Translations under genes and position numbers: made by a program
NCBI RefSeq assembly: GCF_001469875.2
Contig: NZ_LOPW02000010.1
Coordinates: 195,942 to 259,941, forward strand
Direction of reading: 5' to 3'
DNA from: Haloferax marisrubri
Lineage (GTDB): Archaea; Halobacteriota; Halobacteria; Halobacteriales; Haloferacaceae
DNA: 64,000 nucleotides
The notes under the pieces: generated by a model
Told to the model about the DNA's origin: nothing
What the model saw: only the letters and a program-made list of their open reading frames with translations
Databases searched by the model: none
Shown here: in pieces, positions 4,885-63,225 of the stretch
Position numbering within the stretch: the first letter of the stretch is position 1
How the letters are laid out: the number at the start of each line of letters is the position of its first letter

Positions 4885-7800
4885 TCACTCGAAGACGCGT
4901 TCGACCAACTTTCGCTCGGCCGCGCGCAGGTGGTACTGGTAGGTCGGCGCGCTGATGTCGAACGTCTCCGCGAGCGTCTCGGCGGTGCTGCGGCGCGGCC
5001 ACTCGTAGAAGCCGGCGAGGTGGGCCGCCCGAATCGACTCGTGCTGGCGGCTCGTCCACGCCGCGCGCATCTCGGCGGCGAACGTCTGCGGCGACTCGGC
5101 CCCGTCGGCGGCGGTCCGCCGAGACAGCAGGCTCGTTCCGGGGTAGTTCGAGTCGAGCGCGTCCACGAACGACCGGACCCGGATTCGCTCCGGCACTTCG
5201 GCGGTGAGCGTGGTCTGGGTGGGCGTCGCGTCGAGCGCGCGGAGCGTCGCCTCCGAGGCGTACAGCGTCTCGAACAGCGATTCGCGCGGGAGTCGGAGTT
5301 CGAACAGCGACCCCGAGTCGTCGGTGGAGACGTGGCGCACGCGCGTCGCGATGTCTCGTCCGGCGTCGACAACGTCCTCCGGTTCCGCGTCGCTGGTGAC
5401 GAACGCGATGACGGAGCCGTCGGACTGTGGGATGACGCCCCCGAGGCTCACCGCGTGACCGACCCGCCGGGCGAGCCGCGACAGCGACAGCCGGTCGCCG
5501 CCGAGTTGTACCTGCACGTCGGTCTGGCGCTCGGTCAGCATGGCGTCGGCGCGCCCCGTGGCCGTGAGCGCGTAGCCGACCGTCTCGCCCAGCCCGCTGA
5601 GCAGGCCGTCGTCGTCGGTGAAGGAGTCCGGGTCGGTCGCGTGGACGACGAACAGCGCCTCGACCCGGTCGTCGGCGACCGCGGGGATAACCGCGATGGC
5701 GCGGAACCCGTAGCTGAGGGCGTCGCCGCGGTGGTCGGCCCACGCGGGGTCGTCGAGCACGTCAGCGACTACCTGTATCTCTCGGCTCTCCATGGCGGCT
5801 TCGAGGAGCGAAAACAGCGGCTCCGCGCTCGCCACTTCTCCGAGCCGGTCCGCGTAGGCGGTGTCCGCGCCGTGGACCGCGTCGCTCGTCGGGCGATACG
5901 TCTCGTCCACGTCGCTGGCCTCGGCGTGCCAGACGACGGCGTAGTCGTCGGCATCGACGAGGTGTTTGGCGACGGCCGACAGCGCCTCGCCGCGGGTCGG
6001 CGCGCGGATGAGCGACTGGTTGATGTTTCGGATGGTCTCGTTGATTCGGTCGAGCCGAGTGAGCGCCTCGTTCTGGGCTTCGAGCCGGCGGTCGCGCTCG
6101 CGTAGCTCCGCCTCGGCGTCGACGCGTTCGAGCAGCTCCTCGACGGTCGCCGAAAGCAGGTTCACGAGTTCCACGTCGACCTCGTTCGGCGCGACGGTGC
6201 CGGGATGGCCGGTGACGAGCACGCCGTGGCGACCGAGCGGCGCGGCGATGACGCGCTCGACGCCGTCGACGACGCCCCCGTCGGGCGCGAGTTCGACCAC
6301 GCGGACCTCGCCGGAGACGAACGCGTCCCAGACGCCGCCGCGGTCGAGGCCGCCGTCGAGCGGCGTGTCGCCGAGGCCGGTCCCCGCCGCGCCCACGCGG
6401 ACGAGACTCGTGTCCGACTCGTCGAAGACGAACAGCTCGGTCCGGGCGTCGCCGAGCACCTCGTCGCAGGCGTCGGCGGCCGCCCGGAGGACGGTCTGTC
6501 TGTCGGTCGCGCCCATCATCTCGCGGGTCCGGTCGTGGAGCGTCGCCAGCAGGCGCTCGTAGCGGTGCCGCTTCGTCACGTCGCGGAGGACGCCGACCGA
6601 GCCGACCTCCTCGCCGCCGACGACCAGCGGCGTCCGGTGGTTCTCGACCCGGACGACCTCGTTGTCGGGAGTCTGGAGTTCGAATTCGACGATGCCCCGC
6701 GACGAAGCCGCGAACGCCTCGTCGCTCTCGTCGGTCGCGGTCGCGTTCTCGGCGAGCAGGTCCGTCGACGACCCGATGACGCGGTCGCGGTCGAGCCCCG
6801 TCAGCCGCTCGAACGCCGGGTTGACGGCCGCGAACCGCCCCTCGTCGTCCAGCGCGTACACCGCGTCGGCGACGGCCGCCAGCATCCGCCCGTACTGCTC
6901 GGCTTCGACCTCGTGTTCCAACTGCTCCGTGATGTCCGTGAAGTAGACCGAGAGCCCCGTTTCGGAGGGGTACGCCCGGACCGCGTACCACGTTTCGAGG
7001 CGGTCGTAGTAGGTCTCGAACGTCGCGGGCTCCTGTCGCTCCATCGCGCGCTCGAACTCCTCGCGGAAGACGTTCGCCTCGGGAACCGAGTCCCAGATGC
7101 GCGTCCCCAGCACCGACGCGGCGGACATCCCGAGTCCGTGTTCGGCCGTGGAGTTGACGTACGTGACGCGCCAGTCCGCATCGAATCCCATCACCGCCTC
7201 GTCCATCCGCTCTAAGACCTCGGAGAGCGCGCTCTTGAGTTCGTGTCGCTCGGTCGCCGCGCCGACGACGGCCGCGATGTTCTCCAAGAACAGCACGTCG
7301 TCGTCGGTGAACTGCCCGCGGGCGACGCCGTGGACGTTGATGACCCCCCACCACGTCTCGTCGCCGCCGATGGCCGCGCTGATGCCGCTTTTCGGTCCCG
7401 ACGGAGCCGCGTCGGCGGCGCGCTCGAAGCGCTCGTCGGTGTCGAAGTCGTCGACGAGCGTCGAACGACCGGTCCGGTACGTCTCTGCGGCCTGCGTCCC
7501 CCCGGCCGCGGCGGGCCCGTGACTCCTGCTCGCCGACCATCCCGCGGCGGCGGCGACGCGAAACGCGCCGTCGTCGAGGCCCTCGAAGATGGTGACGGAG
7601 TCCGCGTCGAGCACGTCGCGGACGCGACGCGCGGCGTGGTCGAGCGTCGAGTCGAGGTCGGTGGCGGTCTGTGCCCGCGTGCCGACCTCGGAGACGACGC
7701 GCTGTTGTTCGATTCGGTCGCGGTGGTTCCGCGCGAGGGTACACTCGCCGAGCGCCCGCTCGACGCGGAAGGCCAGCCACGACATCGTCTCCGGGTCGTC

Positions 7801-8127
7801 GTCGTCGCGGACGACGTAGTCCGTCGCGCCGGCTTCGACCGCGTGCGCCGCGACCTCGCGGTCGGCGGCCGCGACCACGACCGGGATGTCGATACCCTGC
7901 GCGTAGATGTCGCGGACGAACGCCCCCTCGTCACCGGCCGCCGTGGGTGCGGTGAAAACGATACAGGAGACGGCCGCGGCGGCGGCGACGAGTTCCGCGC
8001 GCGCCGCGGCGGGAGTGCGGACGTGGCGGACGGCGGTCGCTTCGTCGAGCGACGACAGCGACGATTCGAGAGCCGCCACGAACTCGTCGTCGTCACTCAC
8101 ACAGAGTACGGTGGGGGGCGGTAACAC
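4885..8127 (-). CDS. Bat-like multidomain sensor/transcription regulator (pseudo-receiver, GAF, PAS, HTH_10)
   Basis: 1080 aa, GTG start. Order: a receiver-like domain at about 5-125; a GAF domain at about 145-300; PAS 1 at about 305-420 (GFDADWRVTYVNSTAEHGLG); PAS 2 at about 425-545 (YALDDEGRFAAVNPAFERLT); a GAF-like domain at about 550-690; a short coiled coil; a further GAF-like domain at about 725-865; the bacterio-opsin-activator associated domain at about 870-1010; and a C-terminal HTH_10 (ETLAETFDISAPTYQYHLRA, then AERKLVERVF). No histidine-kinase domain is present, so signal input and DNA binding lie on one chain. The receiver lacks the phospho-acceptor Asp: the expected position reads IVFTAP with Thr59. 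That suggests a non-phosphorylated fold. Bat in Halobacterium senses light or oxygen; the ligand here is unknown. Confidence 0.85.
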   Translation of the reverse strand: MLPPPTVLCVSDDDEFVAALESSLSSLDEATAVRHVRTPAAARAELVAAAAAVSCIVFTAPTAAGDEGAFVRDIYAQGIDIPVVVAAADREVAAHAVEAGATDYVVRDDDDPETMSWLAFRVERALGECTLARNHRDRIEQQRVVSEVGTRAQTATDLDSTLDHAARRVRDVLDADSVTIFEGLDDGAFRVAAAAGWSASRSHGPAAAGGTQAAETYRTGRSTLVDDFDTDERFERAADAAPSGPKSGISAAIGGDETWWGVINVHGVARGQFTDDDVLFLENIAAVVGAATERHELKSALSEVLERMDEAVMGFDADWRVTYVNSTAEHGLGMSAASVLGTRIWDSVPEANVFREEFERAMERQEPATFETYYDRLETWYAVRAYPSETGLSVYFTDITEQLEHEVEAEQYGRMLAAVADAVYALDDEGRFAAVNPAFERLTGLDRDRVIGSSTDLLAENATATDESDEAFAASSRGIVEFELQTPDNEVVRVENHRTPLVVGGEEVGSVGVLRDVTKRHRYERLLATLHDRTREMMGATDRQTVLRAAADACDEVLGDARTELFVFDESDTSLVRVGAAGTGLGDTPLDGGLDRGGVWDAFVSGEVRVVELAPDGGVVDGVERVIAAPLGRHGVLVTGHPGTVAPNEVDVELVNLLSATVEELLERVDAEAELRERDRRLEAQNEALTRLDRINETIRNINQSLIRAPTRGEALSAVAKHLVDADDYAVVWHAEASDVDETYRPTSDAVHGADTAYADRLGEVASAEPLFSLLEAAMESREIQVVADVLDDPAWADHRGDALSYGFRAIAVIPAVADDRVEALFVVHATDPDSFTDDDGLLSGLGETVGYALTATGRADAMLTERQTDVQVQLGGDRLSLSRLARRVGHAVSLGGVIPQSDGSVIAFVTSDAEPEDVVDAGRDIATRVRHVSTDDSGSLFELRLPRESLFETLYASEATLRALDATPTQTTLTAEVPERIRVRSFVDALDSNYPGTSLLSRRTAADGAESPQTFAAEMRAAWTSRQHESIRAAHLAGFYEWPRRSTAETLAETFDISAPTYQYHLRAAERKLVERVFE

Positions 8128-8182
8128 AACTCGTGTACGTGGCTCGTCGTGATAAGCCCTCGTCCGACCGCGTGCGGTCCTG

Positions 8183-8698
8183 TCAGCCGCTCTGCCACTC
8201 GGCCACGTCGAGGACCATGATGTACGCGTCCTCGCCGTCGCCGTAGTAGCCCGGCACCCGGCGGGCGGGTTCGAAGCCGAGACTCCGGTAGAGGCCGATG
8301 GCGGGGTCGTTCGAGACGCGGACTTCGAGTTTCACGACCGTCGCGCCCGCGATGGCCATCGCCGTCAGCGACTGCACGAGCAACCGCCGGCCGAGGCCGT
8401 TTCCGCGGGCCGCCGGGCGGACCGCGAGGTCCTTCACGTGGCCGATGTCGTTGCCGTGGTTCGGCATCACGTCGGCGACGACGTAGCCGAGCACCTCGTC
8501 CCCGCGGGCGGCGACGAGAAACGCCGGCTCGTCGACGAACATCTCGAACGCGGAGTACGGCCACGGCTCGGAGAAACAGGTCCGCTCGATGCGGAGCACG
8601 TCGAGGAGGTCCGCGCGGTCGACCCGCCGGACGACCAGGTCGTCGGCGAGCGCGTCGTCGAACGACGTCACGCTCGGCGCTACGTGGTTGGCACGCAA
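8183..8698 (-). CDS. rimI: Ribosomal protein S18-alanine N-acetyltransferase-like (RimI) GNAT enzyme
   Basis: 171 aa. A complete GNAT fold is visible: LVVRRVDRADLLDVLRIER, CFSEPWPYSAFEMF (the RimI/Naa10-type substrate loop), the acetyl-CoA P-loop VRPAARGNGLGRRLL at about 102-116, and YRSLGFEPARRVPGYY near the end. RimI-like enzymes acetylate protein N-termini; in archaea one such enzyme has broad N-terminal specificity. The gene stands between the Bat-like regulator and aconitase, all on the minus strand but with clear gaps. Calling it RimI rests on the EPW and GYY motifs. Confidence 0.85.
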   Translation of the reverse strand: MRANHVAPSVTSFDDALADDLVVRRVDRADLLDVLRIERTCFSEPWPYSAFEMFVDEPAFLVAARGDEVLGYVVADVMPNHGNDIGHVKDLAVRPAARGNGLGRRLLVQSLTAMAIAGATVVKLEVRVSNDPAIGLYRSLGFEPARRVPGYYGDGEDAYIMVLDVAEWQSG

Positions 8699-55758: not shown

Positions 55759-57279
55759 TCAGTTCGGGCGGTCGTCGCCGCCGCCGTCCGCCCGCATCGC
55801 TCGGGTGGGTGTCGAAGCGGGTGGCGTCGCCGTTTCGCCGCCCGGTACGCCGCCCGTCGCGCGCCCGGAGTCGAACTGCGAGACGAGCGATTTGAGCTGT
55901 TGTGCGCGCTCCGAGAGCGACGAGGACGACGCCGCAATCTGCTGGGTCGCCGCCGTCTGCTCTTCGGCCGCGGCGGAGACGTTCTGCGCCTCGGAGGCCG
56001 TCTGGTCGCTGAGGTTCGTTATCTCGTCCATCATCGTGACGACCTCTTGGGTCGACTGCGCCTGCTCGTCGGTGGCGCTGCTGATGGACTGGATGGAGTC
56101 GTTGCTGTCTTCGATTTTGTGGACGATCTCTTCGAGCACCTCGACCGTCTCGCCGACGGTCTCGCGGCTGGCTTCGACCTCGTCTTGCGTCTCGAAGGTG
56201 TCTTCGGCGACGTTCTCGGTCGATTTCTCGATGTCGTGGATGAGCGAATCGACCTCTTGGGTCGCCTCGGCGGTCTCCTCCGCGAGCGTCTTCACCTCGC
56301 TGGCGACGACGGCGAAGCCCTCGCCCGCGTCGCCCGCGCCCGCCGCCTCGATGGAGGCGTTGAGCGCGAGGATGCTCGTCTTCTCCGCGATGTCGTCGAT
56401 GAGGTCGACGACCTCGCTGATCTGCGTGACCGACTGCTGGAGTTCCTCGACCTCGGAGACGGTCTCGGTCGACCGCGACTCCAACTGCTCCATCTTCTCG
56501 ATGGTCGAACTGGCGGCCGCTTGGCTCTCCTTGGCGCGCCCGACGGTCTGTTGGGACTGCCGCGCGATCTCCTCGGAGGAGGAGGCGATCTCCTCGATGG
56601 TCGCAGAGAGGTTGCTCAGTTCGGACTCCGCGGCGTTGAGGTTCCGGTGTTGCGTCTCGTTGCCCGCCGAAATCTCCTCGATGCTGTTCGCCACGTCCGT
56701 GCTCGTCGTCTTCACGGCGTCCGCGCTCGCGGTGACTTCGGAGCTCTCGTCGTCGACCTGCTCGGCGAACGTCTGTATCTGGACGATGACCGAGTCGATG
56801 GCCTCCAACATCTCGTTGAAGCCCCGCCCGATGCGGCGCATCGCGTCGTTGTTGCTCTCGGCGTCGACGCGGACGGTGAGGTCGCCGTCGGCGGCCGTCT
56901 GCATCGCGTCACCGTAGTTCTCGGCCTGCCGTTCGAGGTCCGTCGTGAGCGCGTCGAGTTCTCGCCGCCGTTCTTCGGCGTCGCTGACGAGCTCTTTCAT
57001 GTCCGCGACGATGGCGAGCGTCGCGGTGCCACCGATGGCGAAGACGGCGACCGTGGCGGTCATCAGCGGCGAGGTCACGAGGTTGAATATCTCGGGGTAG
57101 ATACCGAGCTTTTCCATCGTGAGGCTAATCATCCACAGAATCGCCAGCACGGAGGCGAACGCGTACGTCAGCCAGAACGACGCTTCCGCGTCGGTGTCGC
57201 GGTAGTTGAGCCACGCCAGCGCCGCGGCACCGATGAAGCCGAGGGTTCCGATAGCGTCGAACAGCGCGTCGATTATCAC
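55759..57279 (-). CDS. Methyl-accepting transducer (Htr type) with three-helix membrane domain
   Basis: 506 aa, GTG start. Three membrane helices in the first 90 residues ([55 protein letters not shown]) with no outside sensory domain. A HAMP region follows ([20 protein letters not shown], about 118-165), then the signalling coiled coil with the hairpin tip [20 protein letters not shown] and [20 protein letters not shown]. The tail is Gly/Pro/Ala-rich. It would relay signals to CheA/CheW. It overlaps the upstream 93-aa membrane gene by 4 bases, so the two are made together. Confidence 0.9.
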
Positions 57280-57557
57280 GAGCCCTCACCGCCTTTGATG
57301 ACGTTTTTCCGGCGGACGTACGCGGCCGCGAAGAACGTGACTCCCGCGAGGCCGATGCCGACCGCGTGCTCGATGAAGTTGAACACCGAGCCGAGGAAGA
57401 ACACCTCGACGTTCGTCGCGACCATCCCGACCACGAGCAGGACGTACCCCGCAGCGAACAGTTTGGTCTCGTCTCTGTACTGCGTAATAACCGGTATCAG
57501 CCCGACGAGGGCGACGGCGAGCGCGGTTACTTCGAGTGGTGATAAGTCGGCTAACAT
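57276..57557 (-). CDS. Small three-helix membrane protein coupled to the transducer
   Basis: 93 aa: helices at about 7-24 ([18 protein letters not shown]), 33-55 ([20 protein letters not shown]) and 60-82 ([20 protein letters not shown]), ending in basic residues. The layout (helix, YRD loop, helix, F-N loop, helix) parallels the membrane part of the transducer encoded just downstream, and the genes overlap by 4 bases. I infer that it pairs with the transducer as a sensor subunit. The family is unnamed to me. Confidence 0.75.
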
Positions 57558-59321: not shown

Positions 59322-59394
59322 TGCCGGCCCGGCCGGTCGCGTCGGCGTCTGTCGGTCGATGCTCTTAGGTTCACCCGACGTATCAACGAACACG

Positions 59395-59670
59395 ATGGAG
59401 GCTGTCCTCTGGTACGTGCTCACGGGAACCCGCGGCGGTGAAAACCGTGTGCGTATTCTCAAGACCGTAGAGGAACAGCCCCGAAACGCCAACCAACTGG
59501 CCGAGACGCTCGACCTCGACTACAAGACCGTCCGGCATCACCTCGACGTGCTCATGGACAACGACGTGGTCCAGCGGAGCGGCGACGACTACGGCGCGGT
59601 CTACCTCCCGTCGCCGCGGTGTCGCGCCAACTGGGAGACCGTCGAGACCATCGTCGAGCGGATGGACTGA
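59395..59670 (+). CDS. Winged-helix transcription regulator (ArsR-like)
   Basis: 91 aa from ATG at 59395. Helix-turn-helix: RVRILKTVEEQPRNANQLAE, then TLDLDYKTVRHHLDVLMDND, and wing VVQRSGDDYGAVYLPS. The C-terminal helix (NWETVETIVERMD) may dimerise. This HTH-only protein is followed by a small membrane protein gene on the same strand after 79 bases, which might be its sensing partner. Ligand unknown. Confidence 0.85.
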   Translation: MEAVLWYVLTGTRGGENRVRILKTVEEQPRNANQLAETLDLDYKTVRHHLDVLMDNDVVQRSGDDYGAVYLPSPRCRANWETVETIVERMD

Positions 59671-59749: not shown

Positions 59750-60055
59750 ATGAGTATCTGGGTGGACGTTGCGACGGTCTCCTCGGGCGTCAACGTCGTC
59801 GTGCTCCTCGCACTGTCGGCGGTGTGGGCCCGAAACTACCTGACCTTCAGGTCTAAACACGCCGTCGGCCTCCTCGTGTTCGGGGTGTTCCTCCTCGCCG
59901 AGAACGCGCTGGCGTTCTACATGTACATCCTCGACCCGACGCTCTCGGGGTGGTTCAGCACCGACGTGCCCGTCATCGCGTGGCGACTGATGATGCTGTT
60001 GCACGTCTTCGAGACGGTCGGTCTCGTGTTCCTCGCGTGGATTACGTTCGACTGA
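59750..60055 (+). CDS. Small three-helix membrane protein
   Basis: 101 aa: helices at about 12-28 (GVNVVVLLALSAVWARN), 38-60 (AVGLLVFGVFLLAENALAFY) and 74-98 (AWRLMMLLHVFETVGLVFLA). Similar in size and layout to the 93-aa protein at 57276 and to the membrane domain of the transducer at 55759, though the similarity may be only topological. It follows a winged-helix gene. Function unknown. Confidence 0.7.
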   Translation: MSIWVDVATVSSGVNVVVLLALSAVWARNYLTFRSKHAVGLLVFGVFLLAENALAFYMYILDPTLSGWFSTDVPVIAWRLMMLLHVFETVGLVFLAWITFD

Positions 60056-61221: not shown

Positions 61222-63225
61222 ATGCGACGCACACTCGCAGTGTTGATGACACTCGTCGTGGTCGTCGGGGGCATCCCGGCGGCCGCAGCGGCACAACAGG
61301 AGACCGCGTCCGTCTCCTTCGAAAACCAAGCGACGGGCGGGACGACCGTGACCGTCGACTCCGTCACGCTCCCCGAGGGCGGCTTCGTGACGATTCACGA
61401 CGCCTCCGTCACGGACGGCAACGTCCTCGGGAGCGTCGTCGGCTCGTCGATGTACCTCGACGCCGGCACGCACGAGAACGTGACCGTCCACCTCGACGAA
61501 CCGGTCGGCGAGTCCGGCACGTTCGTCGCCATGCCCCACATGGACTCCGACGGCGACCGCGTCTACTCGTTCGTCGCGGCCAACGGCGAGGCGGACGGCC
61601 CGTACACGGCTGACGGCGGCGCCGTCGTCGACACCGCGATGGTCAACGCGAGCGCGACCGTCTCGATGTCCGACCAGCCCACGACCGGCGACTCGGTCGT
61701 GGTCGACCGCGTCGAACTCTCGCAGGGCGGCTTCGTGACGATTCACGACGGCACCGTCACCGAGGGCGCGGTGTTCGAGAGCATCCGCGGCACCTCGGCG
61801 TACCTGCCCGCCGGCGTCCACGAGAACGTCCGCGTCGAACTGGACGCGCCCGTGACCGAGAACACGACGCTCGTCCCGATGGCGCACATGGACACCGACG
61901 GTGACGAGATGTACACCTTCCCCGAGTCGGAAGGCGAGACCGACGGCCCGTACACGGCTGACGGCAGCGCCGTCGTCGACACCGCGATGGCCATGCCCTC
62001 CGACACCGCGAGCGTGAACTACACCGCGAAGGCCACCGGCGGCTACTCCGTCGTCGTCGACTCGGCGTACCTGCCCGAAGGCGGCTTCGTGACGGTTCAC
62101 GACGGCACCGTCACCGAAGGCGCGGTGTTCGAGAGCATCCGCGGCACCTCGATGTACCTCGAACCCGGCCTGCACCACGACGTGCGAGTCACGCTCGACT
62201 CGCCGCTGAACGAGACGACCACCGTCGTCCCGATGGCGCACGTCGACTCTGACGGCGACGAGACGTACACCTTCCCCGAGTCGGAAGGCGAGGCGGACGG
62301 TCCGTACACGGCTGACGGCAGCGCCGTCGTCGACAGCGGCAACGCGACCGTCTCCGCCAGCGTCGACTACACGATGAAGTCCTCGGACGGCGCGACCGTC
62401 GTGGTCGACCGGGTCGAACTCTCGCAGGGCGGCTTCGTGACGATTCACGACCCGTCGCTGTCGGGCGGCGCGGTGTTCGATAGCGTGGTCGGCACCTCGA
62501 TGTACCTGCCCGCCGGCGTCCACGAGGACGTCGAAGTCACCCTCGACGAGCCGATTCGCTCCTCGCAGGTGCTCACCCCCATGGCGCACATGGACACGAA
62601 CGACAACGAGGAATACGACTTCGTGACCAGCGAGGGCGAGGCCGACGGTCCCTTCACGGCTGACGGCGGCGCGGTCGTCGCCAGCGCCCACACCTCGGTC
62701 AACGCGGTCGTGACCGCGATGGACCAGTCCGGCGACGGCACGACCGTCACCGTCGAGTCCGTCACGCTCCACGACGGCGGCTTCGTGACGGTCCACGACG
62801 CGACGGTCACCGAGGGCCAGGTCTTCGAGAGCGTCCGCGGCACCTCCGCGTACCTCGAACCCGGCACCCACGAGAACGTCGAAATCACCCTCGACGCGCC
62901 GCTCGAAGAGTCCGGCACCATCGTCCCGATGGCGCACATGGACACCAACGGCAACGAGGCCTACGACTTCGTGACCGGTGAGGGCGAAAACGACGGGCCC
63001 TACGTCGCCGCGGGCGGCGCGGTCGTCACGACGGCCGACTACACGGTCGAAGGCACGATGACCGAGACGCCGACCGAGACGATGACCGACGAACCCACGA
63101 CCGAGATGACCGACGAGTCGATGGAGACGACGAGCGAGTCGTCCACCGAAGCGCCCGGCTTCGGGCTCGTCGTGGCCCTCGTCGCGCTCGTCGCGGCGGC
63201 GCTCGTCGCCGCCCGGCGTCGGTAA
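61222..63225 (+). CDS. DUF7282 five-repeat surface protein with PGF-CTERM tail
   Basis: 667 aa. Sec signal peptide (MRRTLAVLMTLVVVVGGIPA, then AAAAQQ). Five repeats of about 115 residues follow, each with LPEGGFVTIHDASVTDGNVL, a S-M/A-YL-x-AG-x-H-x-NVxV segment and a MAHMDTDGDxxYxF...DGPYTADGxAVV end. This is the DUF7282 pattern. A Thr/Glu stalk at about 610-640 precedes the PGF-CTERM signal EAPGFGLVVALVALVAAALV with an Arg tail, a substrate of archaeosortase A. The protein should end up lipid-anchored on the surface. The repeats are also clear at DNA level, about 350 bp apart. Confidence 0.88.
   Translation: MRRTLAVLMTLVVVVGGIPAAAAAQQETASVSFENQATGGTTVTVDSVTLPEGGFVTIHDASVTDGNVLGSVVGSSMYLDAGTHENVTVHLDEPVGESGTFVAMPHMDSDGDRVYSFVAANGEADGPYTADGGAVVDTAMVNASATVSMSDQPTTGDSVVVDRVELSQGGFVTIHDGTVTEGAVFESIRGTSAYLPAGVHENVRVELDAPVTENTTLVPMAHMDTDGDEMYTFPESEGETDGPYTADGSAVVDTAMAMPSDTASVNYTAKATGGYSVVVDSAYLPEGGFVTVHDGTVTEGAVFESIRGTSMYLEPGLHHDVRVTLDSPLNETTTVVPMAHVDSDGDETYTFPESEGEADGPYTADGSAVVDSGNATVSASVDYTMKSSDGATVVVDRVELSQGGFVTIHDPSLSGGAVFDSVVGTSMYLPAGVHEDVEVTLDEPIRSSQVLTPMAHMDTNDNEEYDFVTSEGEADGPFTADGGAVVASAHTSVNAVVTAMDQSGDGTTVTVESVTLHDGGFVTVHDATVTEGQVFESVRGTSAYLEPGTHENVEITLDAPLEESGTIVPMAHMDTNGNEAYDFVTGEGENDGPYVAAGGAVVTTADYTVEGTMTETPTETMTDEPTTEMTDESMETTSESSTEAPGFGLVVALVALVAAALVAARRR
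61378..63040 (+). repeat. Five ~350-bp coding repeats
   Basis: The repeat cores begin near 61378, 61726, 62080, 62428 and 62777 with ggcggcttcgtgacg, about 350 bp apart. Repeats 2 and 3 share the longest near-identical stretch (about 50 bp from the caccgtcaccga core), which suggests recent exchange between copies. Confidence 0.8.

Follow-up and report, generated by a model that had tools for sequence, protein, structure and literature searches.

Many archaeal transducers lack an assigned stimulus, and the locus studied here raises the question of whether a small membrane protein made alongside one such transducer is part of its sensor. The locus lies in a 64,000-nucleotide stretch of Haloferax marisrubri (contig NZ_LOPW02000010.1, positions 195,942 to 259,941; hereafter, the window), where the gene for a 93-residue membrane protein, which we call A, overlaps a transducer gene by 4 bases. 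Both open reading frames (ORFs) and the overlap were verified, as a first-pass annotation made from the sequence alone had described them. We call the three-helix block that opens the transducer B. Considering gene pairing, output exchange and correlated divergence together, we think it likely that A and B are two obligate subunits of one membrane-embedded sensor with an exchangeable output.

The transducer matches the signalling domain PF00015 with 141.5 bits (cut-off 34.6), which places it among methyl-accepting chemotaxis proteins (MCPs) and halobacterial transducers; the HAMP domain PF00672 scored 22.2 bits, just under its cut-off of 25, at the expected position. Neither the window's A nor the first 100 residues of the transducer, which contain block B, gave a Pfam match over the cut-off or any NCBIfam match. 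The small protein is also present in six named Haloferax records, with identities of 87-93%.

A and B occur together across changing surroundings

A single-sequence search with A across 292 genomes of the class returned 45 matches in 41 genomes. A homologue of block B adjoined 42 of these, and the remaining three, all weak (G076:C1:1803079, G145:C3 and G030:C5), had no B alongside and were set aside. Similarity to the transducer's signalling domain followed downstream on the same strand at 40 of the 42 A+B loci; the two exceptions were G285, where another output is attached, and G284, found on a short contig with its reading frame disrupted. In the latter (G284:C25; L034, L182), an in-frame TGA interrupts the transducer within block B on a 4.9-kb contig, through either sequencing error or gene decay.

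The first-pass annotation had named a lack of co-occurrence in other genomes among the results that would refute the proposed partnership. Co-occurrence held throughout: when 391 genomes of the class were searched by profile, A and B each gave 49 strong loci, in an identical set of 46 genomes, and the two sets adjoin one to one by coordinates. Three genomes (G018, G101 and G383) hold two pairs each. Each profile search also returned one weak row in the class. The weak A-profile match, in G088, was unconfirmed when tested with both profiles and was set aside, as were the weak rows G184:C8 (B search) and G625 (A search outside the class). The gap between the two genes, measured from start codons picked by script, is mostly -8 to +10 bases, and 28 in one reading of G285.

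Searches of whole families widened the sample. The search of family f1 with A gave matches in 29 of 170 genomes and that of family f3 with B in 19 of 146, part of the latter weak; the two together added eight genomes with strong matches. When 13 new loci were tested with both profiles, A and B were found in adjacent genes in ten, and the other three (L214, L218 and L219) showed a weak B match whose small hydrophobic neighbour went unmatched by the A profile. The genes upstream of the other transducers of the window's genome (14 places) were left out of the comparison, as the reading frame picked for several of them was doubtful.

The surroundings of the pair differ outside Haloferax. Seven Haloferax loci retain most of six genes neighbouring it in the window (the CitMHS transporter, the cupin, TgtA, a winged-helix gene, a 101-residue protein and the serine acetyltransferase). 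Outside Haloferax, A and B were both present in all 30 stretches inspected (6-12 kb, representing 28 distinct places), and none of the six neighbours was kept, so the pair behaves as a unit. A count of recurring neighbours lends weak support to this independence: ORF clusters other than A and B appeared in four of 26 stretches at most, under a crude filter that detected even A in no more than 17 of the 26.

B is joined to different outputs

The output attached to B is mostly an MCP, but it is a histidine kinase in three genomes (G285, G741 and G742) and of GAF type in two (G731 and G733). The kinases of G285 and G741 carry PAS domain(s) and a HATPase_c domain (E-values 7e-17 and 1.2e-17, respectively), and G742 holds a near-identical copy of the G741 version; both A and B were found in G741 and G742. 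G731 and G733 each have a divergent A (E-values 1e-9 and 3e-8) followed by a divergent B (5e-8 and 9e-8). GAF domains were identified by Pfam in the G733 protein, which the G731 protein resembles in the ORF listing. At loci L216 and L217 (about 1-2130), a divergent A+B pair is seen in which B heads a long GAF-domain protein, Pfam having been run on L217 only.

We also searched 344 genomes of the phylum outside the class and found A-like proteins in G437, G448 and G414, and, weakly matched, in G625; G443 was added when 11 genomes of that outside class were searched. In G437 and G448, the A gene overlaps a gene for a stand-alone B of 96-97 residues that ends after helix 3. G448 and G443 harbor a second, more divergent type of pair that the haloarchaeal profiles match weakly, and the B copies of G414 carry in-frame stops. 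No MCP domain was found in G437, G448 or G414, whose assemblies are 94, 82 and 94% complete. In G414 and G437 the pair adjoins a Roadblock/LC7 protein (E-values 2e-11 and 8e-14), which in G414 is flanked by two pairs. These loci (L152, about 7100-8470, with the two pairs of G414, and L150, about 6755-7340 and just upstream, with the one pair of G437) sit between ORFs that resemble smc and aspS by eye. We regard as solid the pairing of the two genes, the conservation of the pair and the swapping of its outputs.

A and B diverge together

Across 47 pairs, pairwise distances of A correlate more strongly with those of the B block (0.754) than with those of the signalling domain (0.607), and B correlates with the signalling domain of its own transducer at 0.613. 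The partial correlation of A and B given the signalling domain was 0.607, a value reached by none of 2000 permutations, and that of A and the signalling domain given B was 0.280.

Predicted structure and a candidate outer-face site

AlphaFold2 modelled three helices in each protein, in agreement with the three-helix membrane block that the first-pass annotation had seen at the start of both. For A, the best model has a predicted local distance difference test score (pLDDT) of 92.0 (five models, 78.8-92.0), with helices at residues 7-25, 29-50 and 56-90. For B, the best pLDDT is 93.6 (88.5-93.6), with helices at 2-27, 32-57 and 61-116, counted within a modelled piece that begins at transducer residue 2. 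The loops between helices 2 and 3, predicted to lie outside, have 5 residues in A and 3 in B; because these loops are so short, no outside sensory domain is seen, as had been noted for the transducer. Helix 3 of B continues unbroken into the cytoplasmic part, like a signalling helix. The mean number of lysines and arginines in 48 A sequences (0.31 at the N-terminus, 2.27 in loop 1, 0.00 in loop 2 and 3.17 at the C-terminus) predicts, by charge bias, that the N-terminus and loop 2 of A are outside, and loop 1 and the C-terminus inside.

Nine residues of A (G19, Y38, T48, N49, E51, E63, H64, G67 and G72) and five of B (D8, W36, W49, E56 and G59) are invariant in 48 of 48 haloarchaeal pairs. Several of them cluster at the predicted outer face (Table 1), where T48, N49, E51, E63 and H64 of A, together with D8 and E56 of B, may constitute the stimulus site. 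E63 of A is invariant in all 41 rows of an alignment that includes four distant relatives, and H64 is replaced by tryptophan in two of the four distant stand-alone A proteins. The YRD and F-N turns that the first-pass annotation had regarded as common to A and B did not withstand inspection: both partners carry YRD in 10 of 48 pairs and F-N in 2 of 48, which is not more than chance, and neither is conserved. We rejected these turns as evidence of kinship.

Table 1. Coordinates of the A-transducer locus, in positions of the window
Feature	Position	Strand	Description
Subunit A	57276-57557	minus	93-residue ORF, ATG start; three-helix membrane protein
Transducer	55759-57279	minus	506-residue ORF, GTG start; block B, HAMP-like linker and MCP signalling domain
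Block B	56989-57279	minus	Transducer residues 1-97, three membrane helices; AlphaFold2 model and profile search
HAMP-like linker	56797-56910	minus	Residues 124-161; PF00672, sub-threshold
MCP signalling domain	56011-56514	minus	Residues 256-423; PF00015
A T48 N49 (V50) E51	57405-57416	minus	Outer end of helix 2; T48, N49 and E51 in 48/48
A E63 H64	57366-57371	minus	Start of helix 3; 48/48
B D8	57256-57258	minus	Outer end of helix 1; 48/48
B E56 (E56xxG59)	57112-57114	minus	Outer end of helix 2; 48/48

A probable split sensor and its alternatives

That adjacent genes encode proteins of the same three-helix layout suggests that A and B probably build one split sensor. In such a sensor, the overlap of the genes would let A and the transducer be synthesised in step, and A would pack against block B, probably as an A2B2 assembly around the transducer dimer. 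A stimulus acting on the outer-face polar cluster built by both proteins could then shift helix 3 of B, which runs on toward the HAMP-like region, and so alter MCP signalling to CheA. A and B would constitute a plug-in input, coupled elsewhere to histidine kinase or GAF-type outputs and, in certain archaea, formed with a B that has no output attached. The first-pass annotation had proposed a heteromeric membrane sensor of this kind, with the small protein supplying half of a ligand or proton/redox site. The 49 of 49 pairing, the independence from context, the correlated divergence and the stand-alone pairs support a heteromeric sensor well, whereas the interface it implies could not be placed and a proton or redox site would be hypothetical.

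Several observations weigh against this reading. Contact between A and B is putative, and of the 391 genomes searched in the class only 46 have the pair. The plain correlations differ by an amount whose bootstrap interval lies barely above zero (0.015 to 0.312), 11 of the 47 pairs compared come from Haloferax, and the correlated divergence could partly reflect the rates of membrane proteins or joint horizontal transfer. At the level of residues, the mean of the top 20 inter-protein mutual information values (0.366) barely exceeds the maximum of within-clade shuffles (0.358), with 27 effective sequences and with invariant residues outside the reach of the test, so we did not use it to place an interface. 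Coevolution, which had been suggested as a check on the partnership, is seen in the distances of the two proteins and is marginal between residues. The outer-face set is also only partly kept in distant pairs: stand-alone A proteins retain E63 in four of four, T48, E51 and H64 in two of four and N49 in none of four, and stand-alone B proteins retain E56 in two of three and D8 in none of three (E, E and K instead). Hence, the site would either be specific to haloarchaea or have E63 alone as its core.

The evidence can be read differently if A is an accessory factor, i.e., a folding or stability partner or a modulator, and block B by itself, or the proton-motive force that acts on it, is the sensor. 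A is small and has a single domain, coupled translation would suit an assembly factor, and B has five invariant residues of its own. Yet A has invariant polar residues at its predicted outer face, which resemble a functional site more than a scaffold for packing, and A+B pairs exist that have no output attached. A and B may furthermore be paralogues, as discussed below, which suggests equal roles. We therefore consider an accessory role for A unlikely.

A small transporter or ion conductor, formed by A alone or with B and read by the transducer through its turnover, is improbable in our view. Three-helix proteins of this size are also known among SemiSWEETs and NuoK/MrpC-type subunits, and VIA-align ranked small complex I subunits, which we take to be of the NuoK/ND4L type, best for A (Z 8.8, root-mean-square deviation 3.7 over 83 residues). 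For B, the best rows were ORAI (Z 10.0) and proteorhodopsin (9.9). However, the tool describes Z values in the range of 8.8-10.0 as common among helical bundles, Foldseek gave no match to either model at E<=0.001, and the window's A and B match no transporter family over the Pfam cut-off. Sequence searches of the PDB returned two matches for A up to an E-value of 1, the best at 0.037, and none for B up to 0.1. When 28 sequences each of A and B were compared with families up to an E-value of 0.1, the matches included no SemiSWEET or PQ-loop family. It is very improbable, finally, that operon inheritance alone keeps the two genes adjacent, so that they are co-expressed but encode proteins that do not touch. 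The genes do overlap and are inherited together, and contact between the proteins is putative, but the six other window neighbours are all missing from the stretches outside Haloferax that retain the pair, no strong orphan A or B was found in the 391 genomes, and the pair persists through changes of the output domain and where a genome showed no MCP.

Possible kinship of A, B and DUF7521

Whether A and B descend from one ancestor depends on the alignments compared, the signal appearing only with small alignments that give weight to distant pairs. Haloarchaea-only alignments of A and B gave an hhalign probability of 0.2, and larger trimmed sets (A5/A6), which include distant rows but are mostly haloarchaeal, gave 1.5. 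Small balanced sets (A3/A4) reached a probability of 57 (E-value 1e-4) with a score of 28.3, while 100 class-preserving column shuffles scored 18.2 at most; in control comparisons, A3 scored 17.2 against the reversed A4 and 23.1 against its own reverse. Moreover, the stand-alone B of G448 matches the A profile (E-value 0.0037). A paralogous origin of A and B is suggested by these comparisons, not established.

A third family may link the two. The B profile matches small DUF7521-type proteins (E-values 7e-4 to 9e-4), and DUF7521 aligned to two B alignments with hhalign probabilities of 24 and 16.5, compared to 0.25 with one reversed. Like A and B, DUF7521 is a small haloarchaeal protein of similar size with three helices by hydrophobic pattern; unlike them, in the loci read, its genes follow a putative DNA-binding (winged-helix) regulator instead of a transducer. 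DUF7521 (PF24365, cut-off 27 bits) scored over the cut-off in 23 of 24 relatives, and in the window's genome a search up to an E-value of 1 matched two other places and neither A nor B. Among the rows of the DUF7521 search, seven tandem pairs by coordinates have both members over the cut-off, and two more have one sub-threshold member. In G101 (L219), a pair stands beside a helix-turn-helix gene; one protein is a DUF7521 member (E-value 1.1e-13) that the B profile weakly matches, and its partner is sub-threshold (0.0015). A gene of about 121-125 codons that resembles the L219 helix-turn-helix gene by eye lies just before the DUF7521 gene in six of seven loci read (L221, L222, L229, L231, L239 and L240, at about 1000-2200), and L240 shows two overlapping small hydrophobic genes in succession. 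The helix-turn-helix-like gene and DUF7521 possibly form a membrane-sensing transcription system. A superfamily comprising A, B and DUF7521, with DUF7521 as the bridge, is possible to likely, though unproven.

A was also compared with PF07695 (7TMR-DISM_7TM). Of 28 A proteins, 22 match this family at E<=0.1, the best of them at 4.8e-6, but the window's A aligns to its last third with 14.2 bits against a cut-off of 29, and the family has seven helices compared to three in A; we do not count A among its members.

More broadly, A and B may be the paralogous halves of an archaeal split membrane-sensor module that predates its use in haloarchaeal chemotaxis, and that occurs alone (in certain genomes near Roadblock/LC7), with B fused to an MCP, histidine kinase or GAF-type output, or, via DUF7521, beside winged-helix regulators. 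We offer this history tentatively, as a plausible scenario. If true, one small heteromeric receptor family would feed chemotaxis, two-component and transcriptional outputs.

Other genes of the window

The small protein that had been noted past tgtA was located as a hydrophobic protein of 101 residues (59750-60055, plus strand). No relation to A or B was detected (hhalign probabilities 1.3 and 0.1), and a comparison with DUF7521 gave no signal. Its gene follows, after 79 bases, an ArsR/DUF7342-like winged-helix gene of 103 codons (59359-59670, plus strand), a layout that resembles that of the helix-turn-helix and DUF7521 genes. Further along, a 667-residue protein (61222-63225, plus strand) contains several repeats of about 110 residues by eye, with 'GGFVTIHD'-like and 'AHMDTDGD'-like motifs, and, in the ORF listing, a Thr/Glu-rich tail followed by a C-terminal hydrophobic stretch.

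Relation to known transducers and receptor-transducer pairs

In Haloferax volcanii, HVO_2001 is described as a tRNA-guanine transglycosylase (PMC3017900) and HVO_1999 is annotated as Htr7 (PMC10869688, PMC10716476). As the window's transducer lies two genes before tgtA, this gene order indicates that it is probably the orthologue of Htr7, and A probably that of HVO_2000. The Htr7 transcript was lowered together with motility and chemotaxis genes in an HVO_2753 deletion (PMC10716476), and the Htr7 protein was more abundant in rods, under the significance threshold (PMC10869688); the available passages of these two papers mention no Htr7 partner. Table 2 of PMC3579733 lists the Halobacterium Htr7 (OE3473F) with three membrane helices and an unassigned signal, and the same paper reports that in 2012 only eight of the 18 Halobacterium transducers had an assigned function. 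For one transducer class that lacks a known stimulus, a strict small partner would account for the location of the sensory function, and the question is approachable in Haloferax volcanii, which offers the likely orthologue together with good genetics. Should the pair serve kinases and other outputs as well, it would represent an undescribed input module, and the identity of its stimulus would be informative for other uncharacterised archaeal sensors. A literature search, which covered titles and the starts of abstracts and left most subscription papers out of reach, yielded no paper on the A+B pair among the matches listed.

The first-pass annotation had likened the pair to sensory rhodopsins and their transducers, and the analogy holds in part. 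As in the sensory rhodopsin I/II-HtrI/HtrII pairs of Halobacterium and Natronomonas, a membrane receptor gene stands separate from an MCP-type transducer. Sensory rhodopsin is a seven-helix retinal protein whose signal passes to Htr within the membrane. A, by contrast, has 93 residues and three helices, and no match to an opsin family was found for it in Pfam, NCBIfam or a family scan of A proteins. HtrI and HtrII have two membrane helices each (Table 2 of PMC3579733), unlike the three modelled in block B. Two genes also encode receptor and transducer in the BasB-BasT and CosB-CosT pairs that serve taxis in Halobacterium (PMC3579733). Unlike a BasB-type partner, which binds its substrate outside the cytoplasm, A is integral to the membrane, has helices joined by loops only a few residues long and lacks a binding domain, and it matched no binding-protein family in Pfam or NCBIfam. 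A and B work like a receptor-transducer pair, one that stands outside both the sensory rhodopsin and the binding-protein pairs.
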